This document shows, piece by piece, positions 37,287 through 53,558 of a stretch of 64,000 nucleotides of DNA (the stretch's first letter is position 1; each line of letters begins with the position of its first letter). The DNA is taken from NCBI RefSeq assembly GCF_028201475.1, contig NZ_CP116384.1, positions 806,001-870,000 of the forward strand. Direction: 5' to 3'. The position numbers were made by a program, and so were the translations under genes. The DNA is from Vibrio sp. SCSIO 43137 (lineage in GTDB: Bacteria > Pseudomonadota > Gammaproteobacteria > Enterobacterales > Vibrionaceae). The notes under the pieces are model-generated. The model was not told the origin of the DNA. It did no database searches and saw only the letters and a list, made by a program, of their open reading frames with translations.

Positions 37287-37796
37287 GAACTACCCTGTTT
37301 TTATTCTTATCTACCTAGCCTGCACTAATAATTATTAAAAGCTTAGTGCTTGATTTGAGTGTAGAAAGGAATACCGGGATAGCAAACGACATATAATCAA
37401 ACTATTGCCATAACTCTAGTTGCATAACATTGATATATACCCGTTATTTGTTTCATATCAAGATGTTAGTTTACTGTTTTGCGTCACTTTACATATGCAA
37501 TTAAATCATCAATATTTGATGCAGAGCACATTGAAATACTCCGGTAACACTTGCATTTTTTAAACTTCACTGAATTTAAATAACTACAATTTTTCCGTTC
37601 GGAGACACATTTTTTACCATTTAAGTTCAAAACGTTATATACATATTCCGCACTTAAAACCTTGTTGATATTTCAAACTTTTCAGCAGTAATAAACTCTG
37701 TCATAACATATGCACATCCATATATGCTTTCATAGATATTAGGTTGATATTTTGCTTTATGGCAATAACTTAACAATGACGCTCCGGAGACATTTT
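37287..37796. promoter_or_regulatory. Divergent AT-rich promoter region between the chemosensory operon and the LuxR gene
   Basis: About 510 bases without a gene. On the minus strand, CTACACT at 37358-37364 differs from the RpoS-type -10 CTATACT by one base and would start a message about 65 bases before the first STAS gene. Expression of V. cholerae cluster III is reported to depend on RpoS, which fits. The rest is AT-rich with several poly-T/A stretches and no clear operator. Confidence 0.5.
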
Positions 37797-40580: not shown

Positions 40581-41513
40581 TTAAGGGAAGCAGGCATTAA
40601 GTTGAGCCAACAACCAGGTTGCAGCCAACAGATCTGCACTCCCTCCGGGACTGAGGTTTCGTTTTATCAACTCCGTGTCGAACTCAGAAACGACAAAATC
40701 AAAATCAAAGTCAGGCTTGTCAGCCTGAATAAACAACTTGTGCGCCTCACTTTGAACAAACTTTAACCCTGACATACCGCCTCTGTTTATCAGGTTAGTA
40801 TCAAAGTTTTGCGCCATCAGCGAGAGTAAAGTTTTTGATAACGCCTGCTCTTCCGACCAGCCCCGCTTTATCGATGCCAAATAAACAGGAAGGCCATAAT
40901 TAAATACAGTCGGATAACCCATGGCGGCTTCACCCCGGACACCAGTCAAACCATGTTGACGATATATTTTTTCACCGGCAGTGGTCTCTTTTCCTGACTG
41001 TGAAGCAAGATCTTTTTTGACGATTTCTGCACAGCACTCTTGGATCACTACCTTTATATCAAGAGCACTAAAACTGCCTTTGCGCCGGTATAACCAGCCT
41101 ACTGCCCCACAAATCAACCCAAGGGTAAAGATCATTCCTTTATGGGTATTTACCTTATCCGTTGCGTTAAACATAGCAACTTCGGCTTCAAGACCGACTT
41201 GTCTAAGGCAAGGCAGAAGATCAGACGCCTCAAGATGGCTGCTTTCTGCCCCGGCAGAAACAAACTTTTTCATATAGGGCCGTAATGCCTCTGAACTCAA
41301 CACAAAGGTATCGATAGTCATATCGCGGTGAGCACCGGACGAAACACAGTCCACTAAACCGGCTTTCGGGGTCAGATGAGCTTCGAGCATCATGGCGTGA
41401 TAAGCCAGATCTCCCGCGAGTTGCGCTATATTGAGTTCAGGTTTTCCGTCGGGGGATAGCTGATACAGACTGCTTTCATTCAGTAAGCAGCGAACGGACT
41501 GTCTCGCATTCAT
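40581..41513 (-). CDS. citG: Triphosphoribosyl-dephospho-CoA synthase CitG
   Basis: 310 residues, matching CitG over its length: LEAHLTPKAGLVDCVSSGAH near residue 48 and RQHGLTGVRGEAAMGYPTV in the second half. CitG makes the phosphoribosyl-dephospho-CoA precursor from ATP and dephospho-CoA; CitX then attaches it to CitD. It overlaps citX by 38 bases, last in the citDEFXG operon. In some bacteria the two are one fused chain, so the overlap is in keeping. Confidence 0.94.
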   Translation of the reverse strand: MNARQSVRCLLNESSLYQLSPDGKPELNIAQLAGDLAYHAMMLEAHLTPKAGLVDCVSSGAHRDMTIDTFVLSSEALRPYMKKFVSAGAESSHLEASDLLPCLRQVGLEAEVAMFNATDKVNTHKGMIFTLGLICGAVGWLYRRKGSFSALDIKVVIQECCAEIVKKDLASQSGKETTAGEKIYRQHGLTGVRGEAAMGYPTVFNYGLPVYLASIKRGWSEEQALSKTLLSLMAQNFDTNLINRGGMSGLKFVQSEAHKLFIQADKPDFDFDFVVSEFDTELIKRNLSPGGSADLLAATWLLAQLNACFP

Positions 41514-42021
41514 AAATCATCTCACTCATTCTCTCTTTCAGCTCTTTCAGACTATGGGTTCTGCTACGGCTGCATACCTTGGCATCACTATCGCAAATCA
41601 GGCATTTTCTACGGTCATAGCCAAGTTCTCCCCTTGATAGTATTTTTCCCTCTTTTGTAATAACGTCGATATCAAACAGGCGACCCAGAGGATGACTCTC
41701 TTCTACGGCTACCATTATCCGTTTCAACGCTTCGGCACTATCTACCTTTGCTGAAATCAACAGTTCATAGCCAGTGTCAGCACACACTTTTTCCATACTG
41801 GCTACTGATACCCCATGCTGACAACAGGCGTCTAATATCGCCTGATAACCTTGTTCAAACGCAATGGCCGAGACTTTATTCCTCTTAACGCTTCCTGCCA
41901 TATTCACGGTAAAGCTGATAAGTGGCAGTGCATTGGTCTCAAGCCAAACTTTTTGGCGTGCCGCTCTTCGCTCACGACACGCCAATACCTGCTCGAGCGT
42001 GATTTCAGGTCCGCAGTGCAA
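41476..42021 (-). CDS. citX: Apo-citrate lyase phosphoribosyl-dephospho-CoA transferase CitX
   Basis: 181 residues with the CitX motif SHPLGRLFDIDVITKEGKIL, then RRKCLICDSDAKVC and SRSRTHSLKEL. It transfers the prosthetic group to Ser14 of CitD. The start is TTG at 42021, with GGGAG at six bases, overlapping the end of citF; an ATG-type start is absent. This is the copy with all motif residues. A diverged paralogue lies at 53019. Confidence 0.93.
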   Translation of the reverse strand: MHCGPEITLEQVLACRERRAARQKVWLETNALPLISFTVNMAGSVKRNKVSAIAFEQGYQAILDACCQHGVSVASMEKVCADTGYELLISAKVDSAEALKRIMVAVEESHPLGRLFDIDVITKEGKILSRGELGYDRRKCLICDSDAKVCSRSRTHSLKELKERMSEMIYECETVRSLLTE

Positions 42022-44735: not shown

Positions 44736-45056
44736 GTTGTTTCCTCGTGAATCTCGTATTGAGTATGCTTTGAAATCTGATTCGAGGCGGATAGGCAAGA
44801 AGATTACCAATTCGTCTGTTTTTCCGGAGCCTTTGTCACTCCGGGCACTCTCTATTCTCCTCAATAGCTAAAGGCGGTTAGCGATGGCAATCAAGTTTCC
44901 GCTCAAGCTAAAAAACATTAATAGATTTAATGAATTTAATAGGCTTCAGCTGACTTTCGCCATATTCTTGCGCACGAGGATTTACTAAGAAATAAAGCGC
45001 CTTTACAGACGCTTTTGGGACAAGAGAGTTTTGAGCAAATTGGGTATTTAACAGGG
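44736..45056. promoter_or_regulatory. citDEFXG promoter region with candidate CitB site
   Basis: About 320 bases between citB and citD. It holds TTTAATGAATTTAAT (44926-44940), which recurs without change at 47600-47614. CitB/DpiA proteins are known to bind AT-rich sites before the citrate genes. No other gene is seen here. Confidence 0.5.
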
Positions 45057-45749
45057 TTAGCTCGGTTTGACATAGACACGTTCAGGCCGGCCGACCCTGC
45101 CGTGTTCATTTTCAGCGTCAAGAAAGCCACTTGATGCGCAGTACTCCAGATAACGACGGGCGGTCGTTTTACTGATCCCGACCTGTTCACCTAAACTCTC
45201 AGCGGTAAACTTAATACCGACGTTGTTAATAAACACATCTTTAATCTTATCTAGTGTCAGTTCGCCGATCCCTTTCGGCAGGGCATTTGAGGATTTATCC
45301 CGCACCTGAATGTTAAACAGGTCATCCACATGTCTTTGGCTAATATTGTCATAAGCGTTCAGGGCGCTGTAATACTTCAGATAGCGATTAAGGGTATCTT
45401 TTAAACGATCATAAGCGATGGGTTTTAAGATATAGTCGAAACAGCCACAGTGCATAGCCTCTTTTACCGTATCCATCTCACTGGCGGCAGTAACCAAAAT
45501 AACATCCGGCTTCTTTTTATTTTTTTCGGCGACGATCTCGCGTAACAGATCCACCCCTAACCCGTCCGGCAGATAGTTGTCCAGAATCACCAACTGAGGC
45601 TTGTGAACCTTTATCATGGTTCTTGCCATGTTAAGGTCGGAGGCGATTCCTACCGGGTTAAAACGGAACATCTGCCTTAGAAACTGTGCATGCAGCTCAG
45701 CGATACCCATTTCATCTTCTACAATTACAACGTCTATCAATTCCATCAT
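45057..45749 (-). CDS. citB: Response regulator CitB (DpiA-like)
   Basis: 230 residues: receiver domain (VVIVEDEMGIAELHAQFLRQ; Asp in LVILDNYLPDG; Lys in YILKPIAYDRL) and a C-terminal winged helix (AESLGEQVGISKTTARRYLE). The CitB/DcuR family partners CitA-type kinases. It overlaps the first citA by four bases. Only one such regulator is seen in the window for two CitA-like kinases. Predicted to activate the cit, oad and tct operons under anaerobic citrate. Confidence 0.94.
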   Translation of the reverse strand: MMELIDVVIVEDEMGIAELHAQFLRQMFRFNPVGIASDLNMARTMIKVHKPQLVILDNYLPDGLGVDLLREIVAEKNKKKPDVILVTAASEMDTVKEAMHCGCFDYILKPIAYDRLKDTLNRYLKYYSALNAYDNISQRHVDDLFNIQVRDKSSNALPKGIGELTLDKIKDVFINNVGIKFTAESLGEQVGISKTTARRYLEYCASSGFLDAENEHGRVGRPERVYVKPS

Positions 45750-47380
45750 CTGTTACCGTTTTTGGGAATAAAAATCGAAAATATAGTTCCTTTTGGTTCA
45801 GCGCTATCAACCAAAATCGTACCTCCGGCATTGGTGACATACCGGTTGATGAGGTAAAGACCTATTCCATGGCCTTCATTATCTGCCTTACTCGTGACAC
45901 CGCGCGTATATATTGAATCAGCAATTTGTGGATCGATACCTGTTCCGTTATCACTCACCTCAATAACGAGCTCCTTTCCGGCGTCAGTCAGCAGCAAAGT
46001 TATCACTTTATTGCTTTGCGGATTTTTCAGCGTCGCCTCAAAAGCGTTATCCAGCAAATTACCAATCACCGCTGAGAGTTCATTCGCGTCAATATTGTCC
46101 GTCAGTTCCGACAACTGACACGTAGGGTCAAACTGCAGATCCAGTCCAAGCTCTTTACTACGGGTATGTTTTCCCAGCAATAAACCAGCAATTTGATTGT
46201 TATTAATATTTTTACTTATAAAGTCGATAATTTTTTGCTTTCTGTTATTTTCACGATTAATTAATAATAGAGCAGAATCACAATCGCCTATTTCAATAAG
46301 CCCGGATATCATAGATAGCTTATTTGCATGTTCGTGACGTAATACTCTTAAATTATCGGTATACTGCTTTATCTGAGTCAGCTCTGCTGTCAGCGAGTTA
46401 ATATCATCCTTACGTCTGAAACTTACCACCCAGCCTATTAAATGTTCTTCTTCAATCATGGCAACACGGTTTGCAATAAAGGTCTTGCCGTTGAATGAGA
46501 CAATTTCATCCTTTATATTTTTGTTATAAGGCTTCTGGAAGAAAAAGTTAGTCTGAGACAGGTATTCCAGTACGCTACGGTTCTTCAGCTCATGAGCCTG
46601 TTTTTTCGTTCCTAGCATGGCAAGAGCAGTGTTATTAATCGCCAGAATTTTACCCTGCCTGTCTATTGCAATCACACCTTCGTAAACGGATTTTAAAATA
46701 GACTTTTGCAGATAAAGTGCCAGCGCTATCTGAAATGGCTCCATGCCGTTCATTTTTCGTTTTATATGGCTGGAAAAGAACCATGCGCCAATAATCGTCA
46801 GGATAAAGACAATAATAACGTCATAAGCAAATGGCTTGGCATAAAACAGAAACCATTGATCAAATCTGTTGAACAAGTAGCCGACTGATACCACACCTAT
46901 TATAGTGCCATCAGAATCAACAATAGGCGTCTTTCCTCTTACACCATACCCTAAGCTTCCCTCCCGCAGAGAGACGTATGACTCTCCTCTCTCAAGGGCT
47001 CCCGCATTGTCTCCCCCCTGCATAGGGAAACCAACTTTCTCTTTTACCGGGTGAGCTAAGCGAATACCCTCTGTATCACCCACAACAATAAAACTTGCAT
47101 CTGATAACTTGGTAAGACGATCGATCAGTTTTTCAACACCGGGAACATTTCTGGTTCTGACTTGCTTGATCAAAGCTGGATCACTGGCAATTTCTTTAGC
47201 CTGAATCAGCGCGCGGGTACCTACCTGATGCTCAATAGTATCCAGAAGAGCCGAGTGAAAGTTAGCACTCATAAAACCAAGCTGAAGTACCAACAAAGCA
47301 AAAATAAGCAGGAACACCTGCTTTCTGAACGAAAAACCAGATTTGACTTTGTCCATCAGCTGATGTGAAAACTCATTCAT
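45746..47380 (-). CDS. citA: Citrate sensor histidine kinase CitA, catalytic copy
   Basis: 544 residues: membrane helix about 20-42, periplasmic PDC/PAS sensor about 45-175 with ligand-type residues IRLAHPVKEKVG and YVSLREGSLGYGVRGK, second helix about 180-200, cytoplasmic PAS about 220-330, and a kinase core with phospho-His349 in LRHEHANKLSMISGL, N-box GNLLDNAFEATL, G1 SDNGTGIDP and G2 GHGIGLYLIN. It is coupled to citB. Together they respond to external citrate, usually without oxygen and with Na+. Confidence 0.93.
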   Translation of the reverse strand: MNEFSHQLMDKVKSGFSFRKQVFLLIFALLVLQLGFMSANFHSALLDTIEHQVGTRALIQAKEIASDPALIKQVRTRNVPGVEKLIDRLTKLSDASFIVVGDTEGIRLAHPVKEKVGFPMQGGDNAGALERGESYVSLREGSLGYGVRGKTPIVDSDGTIIGVVSVGYLFNRFDQWFLFYAKPFAYDVIIVFILTIIGAWFFSSHIKRKMNGMEPFQIALALYLQKSILKSVYEGVIAIDRQGKILAINNTALAMLGTKKQAHELKNRSVLEYLSQTNFFFQKPYNKNIKDEIVSFNGKTFIANRVAMIEEEHLIGWVVSFRRKDDINSLTAELTQIKQYTDNLRVLRHEHANKLSMISGLIEIGDCDSALLLINRENNRKQKIIDFISKNINNNQIAGLLLGKHTRSKELGLDLQFDPTCQLSELTDNIDANELSAVIGNLLDNAFEATLKNPQSNKVITLLLTDAGKELVIEVSDNGTGIDPQIADSIYTRGVTSKADNEGHGIGLYLINRYVTNAGGTILVDSAEPKGTIFSIFIPKNGNR

Positions 47381-47599: not shown

Positions 47600-47614
47600 T
47601 TTAATGAATTTAAT
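47600..47614. promoter_or_regulatory. Second copy of the candidate CitB site, upstream of citA
   Basis: TTTAATGAATTTAAT, identical to the copy before citD, lies in the 295-base AT-rich spacer between the two citA genes, about 220 bases before citA. The distance allows an upstream activator site; binding not shown. Confidence 0.4.
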
Positions 47615-47675: not shown

Positions 47676-49298
47676 TTATTTAGGAATAAAGATAGAGAAT
47701 ACTGTGCCTCTGGGAAGAACATTGTCAACCATAATGACACCGCCACTGTTGGTTACAAACCGGTTGATAAGATACAATCCGACCCCCTTGCCTGTTTCTC
47801 CTTCGGCATGACTACTACCTTTATTAAAAATCGTTGTGGCCAGTTCTGGGTCAATACCACAGCCATTATCTTTAACTTCAATCACCAGTTCCTGATCGTG
47901 ATCATTAATCAGCAATGATATTATTTTGCTGCTTTTCGGGTTTTTCAGTGTAGCTTCAAATGCGTTATCCAATAGATTACCAATGATTGCTGAAAGTTCA
48001 TTAACATCCAGTGCCTGATTAAGCTCACCTAACTGACACTGGGGCGAAAACTCAAGGGTCAATCCCAATACACGGGCACGAGACGCTTTGCCAATCAAAA
48101 TACCGGCAACCTGCTTGCATTTAATATGCTCAGTAACAAAGTTTATGGTCTCTTGTTTGCGATGTTTTTCATCATAAATATGCGATAGAGCAGACTGACT
48201 GTCACCCATTTCCAGTAAGCCTGAAATGGTTGAAAACTTATTCTCATACTCATCACGAATCGCCCGAAGGTTGTCGGTATAGAGTTTTATCTGGGTAAGT
48301 TCATTGCTTAACAGGCTTATTTCGTCTTTACGGCGGAAGCTGATCACCCAACCGGAAAGAACCTCTTTGTCATATATTGCAACGCGATTGGCTACAAAGG
48401 TGTCGCCCTTAATGCTGATTAGCTCGTCTTTCAGGTTCTCTTCATAAGGCGTATGGAAAAGAAACTGACTCTGGTTTATATAATCAGTAATTCCCTGACC
48501 ATTTAACTGTTTAGGGGATTTATCTGACTGCATCATTTCTAAAGCGGTAAAGTTTACGGTAAGAATCCGTCCCTTTTTATCGATAGCGATAATACCTTCG
48601 TAAACCGAGCGCAATATGGATTTACGCATATTGTAGGCGAACGCTATTTCAGCCGGCTCTTTTCCATTCATATTGCGTTTAATGTGGCTGGCAAACAGCC
48701 AGGCACCCACCAGCGTAATAACCAATATAATCAAGAAGTCCCACAGCAAAGGCTGGGCATACAGTAAAATCCACTCATCAAACCGCGTGAGCAAATAGCC
48801 GACAGATACAACGCCAATAATATTTCCGCCAGAGTCTATTACCGCCGATTTCCCCCGGATAGAGGTACCAAGGCTGCCTTCACTGACAGAGATATATGAT
48901 TCGCCCCTGACCAGCGCCCCTTCATTGTCTGCGCCTTGCATCGGTAGCCCCACTCTTTCTTTCACCGGATGAGAAAGACGAATACCTCTCTTATCGCCAA
49001 TCACAATAAAACTGGAATCCGAGCTCTGTCTGCGTCGCTGCGCTGTCTGTTCAATTAAAGCCATATCGTTTAAATTTAAGCTCTCAATAAGCAGCGGATC
49101 ACTGGCAATCTCTTTCGCCTGAATCAGGGCACGGGTGCCAACCTGATGTTCAAGTGACTCCATCGCAACATTGCGCAGATTGACCGCAATAAAAATCAGT
49201 TGAAGCCCCATTGAAAACAAAATAAAGATAAAAATCTTATTTCTGAAGGAGACTTCATTTTGGATTTTTGACAATAACTTCATCAGGTTTTCCCGCAT
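47676..49298 (-). CDS. CitA paralogue without the phospho-accepting His
   Basis: 540 residues, collinear with CitA: membrane helices about 22-42 and 180-200, periplasmic sensor with IRLSHPVKERVG and YISVSEGSLGTSIRGK, cytoplasmic PAS, and kinase core. At the H-box it reads IRDEYENKFSTISGL: residue 349 is Asp (GAT, 48252-48254), where CitA residue 349 is His. N-box (GNLLDNAFEATL), G1 (KDNGCGIDP) and G2 (GKGVGLYLIN) remain. It cannot autophosphorylate at the normal residue. The open, unbroken frame, AAGGAAGTG ribosome-binding site and kept sensor residues speak against decay. It is downstream of oadGAB, past a terminator. Confidence 0.9.
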   Translation of the reverse strand: MRENLMKLLSKIQNEVSFRNKIFIFILFSMGLQLIFIAVNLRNVAMESLEHQVGTRALIQAKEIASDPLLIESLNLNDMALIEQTAQRRRQSSDSSFIVIGDKRGIRLSHPVKERVGLPMQGADNEGALVRGESYISVSEGSLGTSIRGKSAVIDSGGNIIGVVSVGYLLTRFDEWILLYAQPLLWDFLIILVITLVGAWLFASHIKRNMNGKEPAEIAFAYNMRKSILRSVYEGIIAIDKKGRILTVNFTALEMMQSDKSPKQLNGQGITDYINQSQFLFHTPYEENLKDELISIKGDTFVANRVAIYDKEVLSGWVISFRRKDEISLLSNELTQIKLYTDNLRAIRDEYENKFSTISGLLEMGDSQSALSHIYDEKHRKQETINFVTEHIKCKQVAGILIGKASRARVLGLTLEFSPQCQLGELNQALDVNELSAIIGNLLDNAFEATLKNPKSSKIISLLINDHDQELVIEVKDNGCGIDPELATTIFNKGSSHAEGETGKGVGLYLINRFVTNSGGVIMVDNVLPRGTVFSIFIPK

Positions 49299-49347: not shown

Positions 49348-49380
49348 AAAAAAGGGAGAAACAGCTTCTCCCTCCTTTTT
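49348..49380 (-). terminator. Terminator of oadGAB
   Basis: On the minus strand GGGAGAA and TTCTCCC form a 7-bp stem with 5-base loop, followed by TTTTTT; it lies directly after the oadB stop and before the CitA paralogue. Confidence 0.75.
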
Positions 49381-49391
49381 ATTTGCAGCGA

Positions 49392-50696
49392 TTAACTGCC
49401 CAGCACATACTTAATCATCACACCCGCAGCGACTGCCGAGCCTATAACACCAGCGACATTTGGCCCCATGGCATGCATCAACAGGAAGTTCTGTGGATTG
49501 GCTTCAAGTCCGATTTTATTCGATACCCTTGCCGCCATAGGTACTGCCGATACACCAGCGGATCCCAACAGAGGGTTTACTTTTTCCTTGAACACTTTGT
49601 TCATCAGCTTGGCCATTAGCAAACCAGCAGCAGTGCCCACACAGAACGCAGCAATACCCAGAGCCAGAATGCCAAGAGTCTGCGGTTGCAGGAACTTGTC
49701 CGCCATCAGCTTAGAACCTACCGACAGACCAAGGAAAATGGTTACGATATTGATCAGCGCATTTTGAGCTGTGTCAGAAAGACGTTCTACAACACCGCAC
49801 TCACGCATCAGGTTACCGAAGCAGAACATACCTAACAGCGGTGTCGCTGAAGGCAATAGCATGGCAATAAGGATAAGCAGCATCAGAGGGAAGCAAACTT
49901 TCTCGATCTTGCTTACCTGACGGAGCTGTTTCATCTCTATCTTACGTTCAGCTTCTGTTGTCAGCGCTTTCATGATTGGCGGTTGGATCATAGGCACCAA
50001 TGCCATATATGAGTATGCCGCTACCGCGATAGCGCCCAGTAGTTCAGGGGCCAGCATGCTCGACACATAGATGGCTGTCGGACCATCCGCGCCACCAATT
50101 ATGCCGATAGCCGCAGCCTGAGCCACACTAAAATCCATAATGCCAAGCTGACTCAGTGCCAACGCACCTAACACGGTGGCAAAAATACCGAACTGAGCCG
50201 CTGCTCCCAGCAATAAGGTTTTGGGGTTTGCCAGTAACGGACCAAAGTCAGTCATGGCACCAACCCCCATAAATATCACCAGCGGCCCTACACCGGAAGC
50301 AATAGCTACGCTGTAGAAGGTATACAACATACCGTCGCCATACTTGTACTGTTCAGCCAGAAGGTGAAGATTCATCTTTTGCTCAGGCGTTGCCATTTCA
50401 ACGGCATGCTTTATTGCTTCAGGCGCGCTATCAGCCAAATTGAGAACAGAAGCAAACGCCTGCATAACATCGGCTTTACCCGCTAATATGGCCGCTTCCA
50501 CCGCATTCACGGCAAGGTTAGCATCGGGAAGATTAGACAAAATCCCGCCCAAACCAATAGGTACAAGCAAAAGAGGTTCAAACTGCTTCACTATCGCCAG
50601 ATAGAGAAGCACCATTCCCACCAGTATCATTATGGCCTGCCCCCACTGCAGATGCAGGAAGCCAAAATCGTTTATAAGAGCTAATGCACTTTCCAT
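49392..50696 (-). CDS. oadB: Oxaloacetate decarboxylase beta subunit OadB (Na+ pump)
   Basis: 434 residues, about nine or more membrane helices. The Na+-linked motifs can be seen: [20 protein letters not shown] and [16 protein letters not shown] (the Asp and Ser of the translocation path), and [18 protein letters not shown] at the end. It decarboxylates carboxybiotin on OadA and pumps Na+ outward. Ten bases after oadA. Confidence 0.96.
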
Positions 50697-50705
50697 GATC
50701 TACCC

Positions 50706-52499
50706 TTATGCCAACGCCAACAGTGCATCACCGACCTGAACGGCGTGACCTTCTGATACGGCTAAATGGTCAACACGACCATCTCTGGCGGCCTTAATCT
50801 CTGTCTCCATCTTCATCGCTTCGAGAATCAGCAGGGTATCACCCTCTTTTACTTCCTGACCCGCTTTTGCATGGATCTTCCAGATATTACCCGCCAGCGG
50901 AGCCGATACGGTTTCTGCATCGGCAGAACTTGCAGCCGGAGTTGGAACCGGAGCTGTTGCTTGAGAATCGGCTACAGCAAGAAGTTCAGGGTCAGCACCT
51001 TCATTAATCTGAACAACATAAGCTTTATTGTTTACATTTACCGTATACACAGCGTTATCTGAAACTGCTTTTGCCGCTTCTGGTTGTGCGCCCTCTTCTT
51101 TAGCGACAGGAACCGGTTCAAATGCATCCGGATTATTACGGTTTTCAAGAAACTTCCACGCCACCTGATCAAACAGTGCAACATTCAGTACATCATCAAT
51201 GCTGTTTTCAGATAACTTTATGCCCTTCTCTTTCGCTGTCGCTTCAACGGATTCAGTCAGTGATGCGACTTCCGGCTCAATCAAATCTGCCGGACGACAG
51301 GTTATCGGCTCGTTGCCATCCAGAACTTTAGCTTGCAGATCTTTATTTACCTCAGCCGGAGTCTGGCCATATTCGCCGCGCAGTACACCGGCAGTCTCTT
51401 TAGTGATGGTCTTGTAGCGTTCTCCCATCATGACATTAATAACCGCCTGCGTACCTACTATCTGAGAGGTTGGCGTAACCAGAGGGATAAATCCGAGATC
51501 TTCACGCACCCGTGGGATCTCCTCTAATACTTCATCAATCCGGTCGATGGCGTTCTGTTGCTTAAGTTGACTCTCCATATTGGTCAGCATTCCGCCCGGA
51601 ACCTGAGCAACTAAAATACGAGAGTCTGAGCCTCTCTGCTGACCCTCAAAGGCGTGATACTTTTTACGGACTTCACGGAAGTAAGCCGCGATGTTCTCAA
51701 TCTTTTCAATGTCGAGACCAGTGTCCCGCTCCGTTCCTTTCAGTGCCGCAACAATAGACTCTGTTGCAGGATGACCATAGGTACCACTCATTGAAGAAAC
51801 CGCTGTATCAACGCGATCGACACCAGCTTCTATCGCCTTCAGTAACGTCATATCAGCAATACCTGCCGTGGAGTGACAGTGCAGATGAAGCTCAACATCC
51901 AGCTGTTTTTTAAGGGTAGAAACCAGTTCATACGCTTCATAAGGAGACATCACACCTGACATATCTTTCAGGGCAATTGAGTTAACACCACACTCCATCA
52001 GTTGCTCAGCCACATCAACCCATGACTGCATTGTGTGTACAGGGCTGGTTGTATAACAGATGGTACCCTGTGCGTGAGCGCCCTGACGGTTAACGGCCTG
52101 GATTGCCTGCTTCATGTTTCGCACATCATTGAGTGCATCGAACACACGAAATACGTCCATACCATTGACAACAGCACGCTCTACAAACTTATCAACCACA
52201 TCGTCAGCATAATGGCGGTAACCGAGAATATTCTGCCCGCGGAATAGCATCTGTTGCTTGGTATTGGGCATGACTTTTTTAAGTTCCCGCAGGCGCTCCC
52301 AAGGATCTTCTCCCAGAAAACGAATACATGAATCAAACGTTGCACCGCCCCAGGACTCAAGAGACCAGTAGCCAATTTCATCGAGTTTGGAAGCAATAGG
52401 AAGCATGTCATCTAAACGCATACGCGTTGCAAATAGTGACTGATGTGCGTCCCGGAGCACCACATCTGTGATACCTAAAGGTTTTACTGTTTTGGACAT
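50706..52499 (-). CDS. oadA: Oxaloacetate decarboxylase alpha subunit OadA (biotin protein)
   Basis: 597 residues. Carboxyltransferase domain about 1-300 ([16 protein letters not shown]; metal-ligand HLHCHSTAG), conserved association domain, then a Pro/Ala linker and a C-terminal biotinyl domain with [12 protein letters not shown], whose Lys carries biotin. It moves the carboxyl group from oxaloacetate, made by citrate lyase, to biotin, leaving pyruvate. Middle gene of oadGAB. Confidence 0.96.
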
Positions 52500-52517: not shown

Positions 52518-52766
52518 TTATGCCTGTTGACTTAGTTTTTGTTTATGGTGATGAAGCGCGGCAGAAAGCGCGGCGACTACGCTGTCGTCTGAACTGCTGT
52601 CTGTACGGGATGGCACGGCTTTCAGCGTTTCAGTTGGCTGAAATTTAACTGCGACAGTTGAAAGCAGACGTGTCGCCCCGACGAGTAAGACAAGAAAGAA
52701 GAAAACAAACCCCATGCCTAGCAACATAAGGGTTACACCTTCCAGAATAATTGGAGTTTCACTCAT
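52518..52766 (-). CDS. oadG: Oxaloacetate decarboxylase gamma subunit OadG
   Basis: 82 residues: one membrane helix (TLMLLGMGFVFFFLVLLVGA), a hydrophilic stretch, and HHHKQK at the end, the His-rich tail that binds zinc in this family. It holds the alpha and beta subunits together. First gene of oadGAB. Confidence 0.92.
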   Translation of the reverse strand: MSETPIILEGVTLMLLGMGFVFFFLVLLVGATRLLSTVAVKFQPTETLKAVPSRTDSSSDDSVVAALSAALHHHKQKLSQQA

Positions 52767-52902: not shown

Positions 52903-52926
52903 TTTAAATGCATTAACGCCATTTAA
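52903..52926. promoter_or_regulatory. Inverted repeat between oadG and the citX paralogue
   Basis: TTAAATG (52904-52910) and CATTTAA (52920-52926) form an inverted repeat in the 252-base divergent spacer; a further TTAAATGG stands at about 52864. The elements resemble the AT-rich sequence before citD, and could be CitB sites for both promoters. Confidence 0.4.
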
Positions 52927-53018
52927 TACTCTGGAGTCATGGTGAAGTGTTTGCTGTTCCTCAGCTCAAGGGGGTTGCGATTAATACACTGTCTCTCCCC
53001 CGTTTTAAGGAGACAAAT

Positions 53019-53558
53019 ATGTCTGATTTAATCACCATCTTCCAAAAGCACCAGATCCTTCAGCAAAGAGCCAGACGACAACAGCTCTGGCTGACAGAAC
53101 ATAAATTACCCTTAGTCACCATTACTACTCATCTGCCTGACAGCATGATTCACAGTACTGCGGCGAAATCTATATTTGCCATTGGCCTTGAGTGTGCAAG
53201 AGAGGTCGTTCGCAACTCCGGTGGAACCATAATTAAACAAGAAGTGTTTAGCCTGAACTCCGACGATGAGGGGTTATTTGCTGTGGCCGGCCTGTCTGCA
53301 TCCGAGCTTAAAAAAGTAATGATCAAACTTGAGAAAAGCCATCCTCTCGGTTCAACCTTTAACTTTGACGTAATGGACCGGGACGGCATAACCATTTCAA
53401 GAAAAGCCGGAGAGTTACAACCCAGAAAATGCCTGTTATGCGACTCTGCTGCTTCATACTGCTACAACTTTTCTAAACACTCAGCTAGCGAACTAGAAGA
53501 AGTCATTATGACCCTGCTTCGCTCTTATTGTGATGAACAAAAAGAAGCCGTCGCTTAA
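53019..53558 (+). CDS. Second CitX-like protein with altered core motif
   Basis: 179 residues, aligned with CitX for most of its length: QQRARRQQLWLTEHKLPLVT, SHPLGSTFNFDVMDRDGITI, PRKCLLCDSAASYC. The CitX core GRLFDIDV is changed to GSTFNFDV: Arg to Ser and the first Asp to Asn, while the second Asp and the RKCLxCD stretch remain. ATG at 53019 with AAGGAG upstream; a longer frame from 52947 has none. Divergent from oadG, convergent with citC. It may have lost transferase activity or changed target. Confidence 0.85.
   Translation: MSDLITIFQKHQILQQRARRQQLWLTEHKLPLVTITTHLPDSMIHSTAAKSIFAIGLECAREVVRNSGGTIIKQEVFSLNSDDEGLFAVAGLSASELKKVMIKLEKSHPLGSTFNFDVMDRDGITISRKAGELQPRKCLLCDSAASYCYNFSKHSASELEEVIMTLLRSYCDEQKEAVA

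Follow-up and report, generated by a model that had tools for sequence, protein, structure and literature searches.

We identified, directly upstream of citA in Vibrio sp. SCSIO 43137, a gene for a CitA paralogue that has lost the phospho-accepting His, and we consider it very probable that its product belongs to the CitA family as a pseudo-histidine kinase maintained by selection. The gene lies in a stretch of 64,000 nucleotides (hereafter, the window) and its 540-aa product is called P. At residue 349, where CitA carries His, P carries Asp, and since this Asp349 is kept in several other Vibrio lineages, P is probably a working regulator without a kinase role. The features of the locus are collected in Table 1.

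Table 1. Features of the P-citAB locus and of the second Asp-type copy (positions are those of the window unless another replicon is named)
Feature	Position	Strand	Basis and remarks
P (CitA paralogue, Asp349)	47676..49298	-	ORF, ATG start, 540 aa; alignment to CitA; Pfam
Codon GAT, Asp349 of P	48252..48254	-	Alignment
H-box of P, RDEYENK, residues 348-354	48237..48257	-	Sequence; conservation in aligned rows
Asn353 codon of P (E/DxxT/N phosphatase motif)	48240-48242	-	Motif named after DcuS E350xxN353 (available text of PMC9429925)
sCache_3_2 periplasmic citrate-sensor domain of P, residues 48-175	48774..49157	-	Pfam; RLSHP and RGK retained
HATPase_c domain of P, residues 431-539	47682..48008	-	Pfam; core N/G1/G2 retained, lid altered
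CitA, His-bearing citrate sensor kinase	45746..47380	-	ORF, 544 aa; alignment; Pfam
Codon CAC, His349 of CitA	46334..46336	-	Alignment
CitB response regulator (phospho-acceptor position, Asp57)	45057..45749	-	ORF, Pfam; 4-base overlap of its start with the stop of citA
oadB, directly upstream of P	49392..50696	-	ORF, family search, locus comparison
Putative oadA	50706..52499	-	ORF, conserved in relatives
Small ORF in the oadG position, presumably oadG	52518..52766	-	Locus comparison
Terminator-like hairpin GGGAGAAgctgTTTCTCCC with T run, between oadB and P	49355..49375	-	Terminator scan
Candidate CitB operator TTAAATTCATTAAA, between P and citA	47600..47613	-	Motif scan
Candidate CitB operator TTAAATTCATTAAA, between citB and citD	44926..44939	-	Motif scan
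Second Asp-type CitA paralogue	chromosome 2, 983053-984660 (L037:9048-10664)		Locus comparison

P and CitA were aligned with 299 identities in 544 columns and zero internal gaps. The preliminary description of this DNA had placed His (CAC) in CitA and Asp (GAT) in the paralogue at the same residue number, and the alignment shows this to be exact: the H-box reads RHEHANKL in CitA and RDEYENKF in P. It had also reported the ATP-binding boxes and the periplasmic motifs in both proteins. We confirmed that the N box (NLLDNAFEA, 441), G1 (DNGxGI, 477), G2 (GxGxGLYL, 503), RLxHP (107) and RGK (148) stand at equal positions in the two, with the refinement that the ATP lid of P is altered. P matched sCache_3_2 with 67.5 bits (cut-off 28.4) and HATPase_c with 64.3 bits (cut-off 26.4), CitA was also above both cut-offs, and the PAS and DHp regions of P were assigned via the alignment to CitA. 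The SPOB_a-type DHp helix gave no Pfam match in P at E 0.001, and in CitA itself it reached only 25.4 bits, under its cut-off of 28.1. DpiB was the best NCBIfam match for both P (464.7 bits) and CitA (538.4 bits); as both score below the equivalog cut-off of 656 bits, this cut-off fails to separate one from the other. The best PDB matches of the P sensor were CitA periplasmic domains. P thus resembles the CitA/DcuS (DpiB) family in its sCache_3_2 and HATPase_c domains and in its best NCBIfam and PDB matches, and differs from it in having Asp for the phospho-accepting His and, across the Asp-bearing clade, in a relaxed Glu350 and ATP lid. An AlphaFold2 model of P placed residue 349 within helix 324-363 (mean pLDDT 75.3, pTM 0.36), and no conclusion was drawn from it because the local confidence was 50-67.

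To define how widespread the replacement is, relatives were collected from about 5.8 billion proteins. Among the best 120 of the 987 found at E <= 1e-80, from 7,998 candidates scored, residue 349 was His in 110, Asp in nine and Lys in one (CitA and P, aligned as separate rows as well, bring the raw column counts to H 111, D 10 and K 1). Asp is carried by P, by the second copy in the same genome, by the proteins of Vibrio sp. 99-8-1, V. hannami, V. iocasae HN007 and V. salinus, and by P0005, P0007 and P0010. Five Vibrio genomes are represented, that of the window twice, and there are three further proteins. The preliminary description had proposed a search for Asp349 in other Vibrio genomes, where it is indeed found in several lineages; with nine Asp349 proteins, it is neither a sequencing error nor an Asp found only here together with other lesions. 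A survey of 227 genomes of the genus, with at most six candidates scored per genome, read residue 349 in all 67 listed matches with at least 41% identity and nine DcuS-like proteins; Asp was found in five genes from four genomes and His in the other 71 genes. Among 296 genomes drawn from the family, matches at E <= 1e-150 were obtained in 39, of which two (44% and 46%) do not belong to the genus. No match was found with P as query against the genome contig collection, and nine records of the plasmid collection held DpiB/CitA-like matches at 39.5-39.6%. The single Lys protein, P0062, has damaged citrate-site motifs (WLFHP and RAY); judged from its sequence, its Lys349 is an independent loss of the phospho-acceptor. 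In the literature, covered by titles and abstract openings and mostly outside subscription papers, no Asp-bearing CitA/DcuS paralogue appeared among the matches listed.

The origin of the Asp lineage was studied in a tree of 53 rows, made of 50 of the 120 proteins picked for spread together with CitA, P and the CitA of 99-8-1. With all columns, the nine Asp rows fell in one clade (support 97/88), with the His349-bearing tandem duplicate (RHEHENKL) of Vibrio sp. JC009 as its sister. When residues 343-355 were left out, the support of the Asp clade was 77/21 and the duplicate clade including JC009 still reached 100/100, which makes the duplication secure. According to this tree, CitA was duplicated in tandem long ago, and the P lineage is a branch of that duplicate. 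A single His to Asp change after the duplication would be the simplest history; alternatively, Asp may have been gained twice, or JC009 may have reverted. A firm claim of a single origin was softened in view of the 77/21 support. The residue itself could matter if Asp349 were phosphorylated, or if it were a permanent mimic of phospho-His locking the dimer in one state. That Asp occurs in all nine members of the clade agrees with this, weakly, as the clade is defined by Asp349. A receiver-type acidic Mg-binding pocket is not expected on a DHp helix, however, and one codon change reaches only few residues, so that Asp349 needs no special reason. We regard such a chemistry as the least probable of the explanations considered here.

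Then, we looked at the constraint acting on the Asp copies. In five pairs of Asp genes pN was 0.16-0.25 and pS was saturated at 0.76-0.86, and for this reason the dN/dS ratio is not usable. The reading frames of the nine Asp sequences are intact. Residues N441, N445, D477, G479, G481, G505 and G507 are kept in all nine rows, Asn353 in these and in the 43 His rows alike, and the helix face formed by 345, 349, 353, 356 and 360 is invariant among the Asp rows, which vary at 343, 346, 347, 350-352, 354, 355, 358, 359 and 362. The first Gly of G2 (503) is present in only five of the nine. Glu350 is found in 43/43 His rows and in 7/9 Asp rows, including P, the exceptions being Val in P0007 and Asn in P0008 of V. 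salinus. In the ATP lid, with JC009 left out, residue 498 is Lys in 42/42 His rows and Ala in P, and residue 504, the second GxGxG position, is His in 41/42 His rows and Lys in P. Across the Asp rows this last position shows four Lys, four Ser and one gap; His504 occurs in none of the aligned Asp rows, nor in the JC009 duplicate. The kept ATP core and Asn353, set against the changed Glu350 and lid, indicate that the core of the nucleotide pocket is constrained and that some autokinase-linked features are less so. Column 349 is the sole one of 540 that is invariant within both groups yet differs between them, a partly circular result as the groups were defined by it.

P evolves faster than CitA: between the window and 99-8-1 the identity is 72.4% for P and 83.3% for CitA, and between the window and V. 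hannami 72.6% and 80.0%. The first DHp helix is 73% identical within the Asp clade and 91% within the near CitA proteins (whole proteins, 66% and 77%), and against the near CitA proteins it is 60% identical in the Asp rows and 81% in the JC009 duplicate. This lower conservation of the helix could reflect a partial release from contact with CitB. The faster rate of P in the first genome pair and the drift of lid and helix residues are what a decaying duplicate, temporarily kept without function, would show. Yet the nine intact frames, the low pN with saturated pS, the invariance of Asp349, Asn353 and the ATP core, and the retention of the transmitter in one more duplicate make such a relic very unlikely. 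The preliminary description had read the replacement as a selected loss, a view that the intact Asp frames, the low pN against the saturated pS and the second copy with Asp349 support well.

This second copy is 66-70% identical to P in TM1, TM2, PAS, DHp and CA and 44.6% in the sensor, where GLSLL and TGK replace the RLSHP and RGK of P. The citrate-site Arg and His residues were thus lost and the Asp349 transmitter was kept. Beside the gene are a LysR-type regulator and an ORF of 563 aa resembling a permease, both recognized by eye. Nothing argues better for a function of the Asp transmitter than its retention after the change of ligand site.

As to the partner of P, the preliminary description had counted a single CitB in the window, correctly. 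In the whole genome, the CitB/DcuR output domain HTH_64 gave two matches at E <= 0.001, namely CitB and a protein on the other chromosome adjoining a DcuS-like kinase, and CitB was the only close regulator found in this search. The sequence of P fits a phosphatase of CitB~P or a setter of its threshold, and would also fit a heterodimer with CitA, of either sign, or a sink for CitB~P. The preliminary description had inferred a negative control of citrate fermentation. We likewise favor, tentatively and at slightly below even chances, a negative tuning of CitB~P by P. In this mechanism, P, a tandem CitA duplicate keeping the citrate-site residues and the core of the nucleotide pocket, would be unable to autophosphorylate on His and would therefore transfer no phosphate to CitB. 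CitB~P would bind P via the unchanged face of the DHp helix, and Asn353 together with the nucleotide-loaded CA domain would lower CitB~P, so that a higher citrate level would be required before fermentation switches on.

Several properties of related sensors, taken from the accessible parts of the papers cited, are consistent with this mechanism. The residue phosphorylated in E. coli DcuS is His349, and E350xxN353 is named as its phosphatase motif; in the two-hybrid assay the H349A variant of DcuS retains 94% of DcuR binding, and its cytoplasmic part 108%, and unphosphorylated DcuS binds DcuR~P with a Kd of 28 nM (PMC9429925), so the loss of His need not abolish binding of the regulator. In CovS, E281A is a kinase mutant and T284A a phosphatase mutant (PMC7028121), and the spacing of these two residues equals that of E350 and N353 here. 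The phosphatase activity of HK853 and EnvZ is strongly stimulated by nucleotide (PMC7005713), which would explain the kept ATP pocket of P, and more sensor phosphatase leads to higher detection thresholds (PMC5897336). Other observations count against a phosphatase. A role of the catalytic His in activating water for the reaction has been proposed (PMC7005713), and its loss could thus weaken such an activity in P. In Taz, phosphatase activity falls by 98% with Lys at the second GxGxG position and by 10% with Ser (PMC5897336); by analogy, Lys504 would be unfavourable in P, with the proviso that CitA proteins have His there, not Thr. The divergence of the helix also weighs against this activity, as do MaeK, which has the motif yet showed no phosphatase activity in vitro in the text available (PMC5457438), and DivL, for which the excerpts describe neither kinase nor phosphatase activity (PMC4211667).

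DivL, which has Tyr in place of His and binds DivK~P, would rather be the model for a non-catalytic role, in which P would be a membrane-bound, citrate-controlled sink or sensor that titrates CitB~P. The hold of unphosphorylated DcuS on DcuR~P and the docking face invariant in the Asp rows are compatible with it. A pure binder would need neither Asn353 nor, presumably, the nucleotide pocket, and yet both are kept in 9/9 Asp rows; we judge a sink to be distinctly unlikely. The negative tuning of CitB~P can also be stated in a bolder form, which we hold to be rather improbable: one codon change would have produced a dedicated citrate-gated phosphatase, with Asp349 as water-activating base beside Asn353 and the ATP domain reduced to a nucleotide cofactor module, and the lineage would be becoming a sensor class of its own, the second copy with its changed ligand site feeding a second signal into the same CitB. 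That Asp349 stands in as the base is speculation.

P could also act on CitA instead of CitB, as a heterodimer partner modulating it in either direction and needing no activity of its own on CitB; the ATP domain of P could phosphorylate the His of CitA, or P could hold CitA inactive. P adjoins CitA in the window and in V. hannami, the equal lengths of their longest contigs suggest that the Asp/His pairs P0007 and P0009 and P0010 and P0049 each share a contig, and the core ATP residues of the Asp rows are all retained. As far as the available text goes, binding to CovS is how the pseudokinase RocA works (PMC7028121), and HrrS mediates the effect of an evolved ChrS pseudokinase, heterodimers being formed by HrrS and native ChrS (PMC9491836). 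In V. salinus, however, citA does not adjoin the Asp gene, and the citA-citB that was found lies on another contig and belongs to a more distant type. Moreover, the drift of residues 498 and 504 is a poor fit for a CA domain phosphorylating in trans, and no selection for or against mixed dimers is visible, the divergence of TM1 being that of the CitA control. Altogether, we find a heterodimer doubtful, though it deserves to be kept in mind. A special divergence of the TM1 of P against mixed CitA dimers was considered and rejected, as its relative identity is the same as in the control (TM1/whole protein, 45.5/58.3 for Asp against near CitA proteins and 56.3/72.2 for near against far CitA proteins).

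The gene order was compared among relatives. In loci with one CitA, oadB is directly followed by citA in 11 of 14, and citA lacks an adjoining oadB in the other three. The duplicate separates oadB from citA in three loci (window, V. hannami, JC009). In two others, 99-8-1 and V. salinus, it still follows oadB and citAB is elsewhere, which indicates that P travels with oadGAB, not with citAB. In all five of these duplicate loci the duplicate comes after oadGAB and a hairpin. This GGGAGA-loop-TCTCCC hairpin 3' of oadB was found, with a strict pattern, in 5/5 duplicate loci and in 5/14 one-CitA loci, that of V. salinus having a poorer T tail. P is probably reached through read-through or from a promoter of its own. 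As the gene after oadGAB, P may report that the pathway is already expressed, as a feedback in the negative tuning that we favor.

The 14-base sequence TTAAATTCATTAAA is exact in the two gaps given in Table 1 and occurs with two mismatches upstream of oadG (52904-52917). With up to two mismatches the window holds five matches against 1.43 expected, a number reached by 2 of 100 shuffles, and the sequence recurs with 0-2 mismatches upstream of citA and citD in loci L038, L039 and L040. The motif scan found it neither in the oadB-P gap nor in loci L037, L041, L042 and L089. As two of the five matches lie outside the cit gaps, at 37566 (two mismatches) and 39288 (one mismatch), and these four loci have none, it is a weak candidate for a CitB operator. 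Two other features of these loci were observed. In JC009 the gap between the duplicate and citA (L038:10380-10668) contains nine copies of CAACCTG. The citrate cluster of the window holds two CitX-like genes, recognized by eye, at 41476-42021 and 52947-53558; the latter is divergent, adjoins oadG and recurs in related loci.

Pseudo-histidine kinases are already known, in DivL, RocA, the evolved ChrS and, within the citrate family, MaeK, and the available parts of the corresponding papers allow a comparison. DivL of Caulobacter (Tyr550) has, like P, a histidine-kinase fold in which His is replaced throughout a family (PMC4211667). It has Tyr and controls a cell-cycle phosphorelay, whereas P retains the phosphatase-motif Asn and is closely paralogous to a kinase that shares its sensor type and is apparently live. 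RocA of group A Streptococcus, a pseudokinase like P, serves a two-component system that is complete without it (PMC7028121); it keeps its His246 and has a CA domain without several kinase residues, the reverse of P. MaeK of the Mae1 group (Lactobacillales) is a citrate family sensor with a partly disabled transmitter that keeps the E/DxxT/N motif (PMC5457438). MaeK retained His and lost ATP binding, whereas P lost His, adjoins an intact CitA and is not MaeK-like, as its CA domain has the ATP core residues. The ChrS pseudokinase of C. glutamicum, a kinase-dead sensor, alters the output of a related live system whose native sensors heterodimerise (PMC9491836), and it arose from a laboratory frameshift in the CA domain, not in a natural conserved lineage. 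HmrX was dropped as a His-less kinase, being described as a putative phosphotransfer protein (PMC11481889).

In the accessible descriptions, the natural pseudo-histidine kinases DivL, RocA and MaeK come without a nearly identical live sister alongside. Here, a His kinase, a His duplicate (JC009) and Asp duplicates coexist; they share the sensor type and one likely regulator, and their docking face is nearly unchanged. Since all three forms exist, the steps from kinase to pseudo-kinase can be tested singly. If P lowers CitB~P, it would be a natural case of two-component threshold tuning through an added kinase-dead sister sensor, akin to the threshold tuning engineered by co-expression of sensor variants (PMC5897336).
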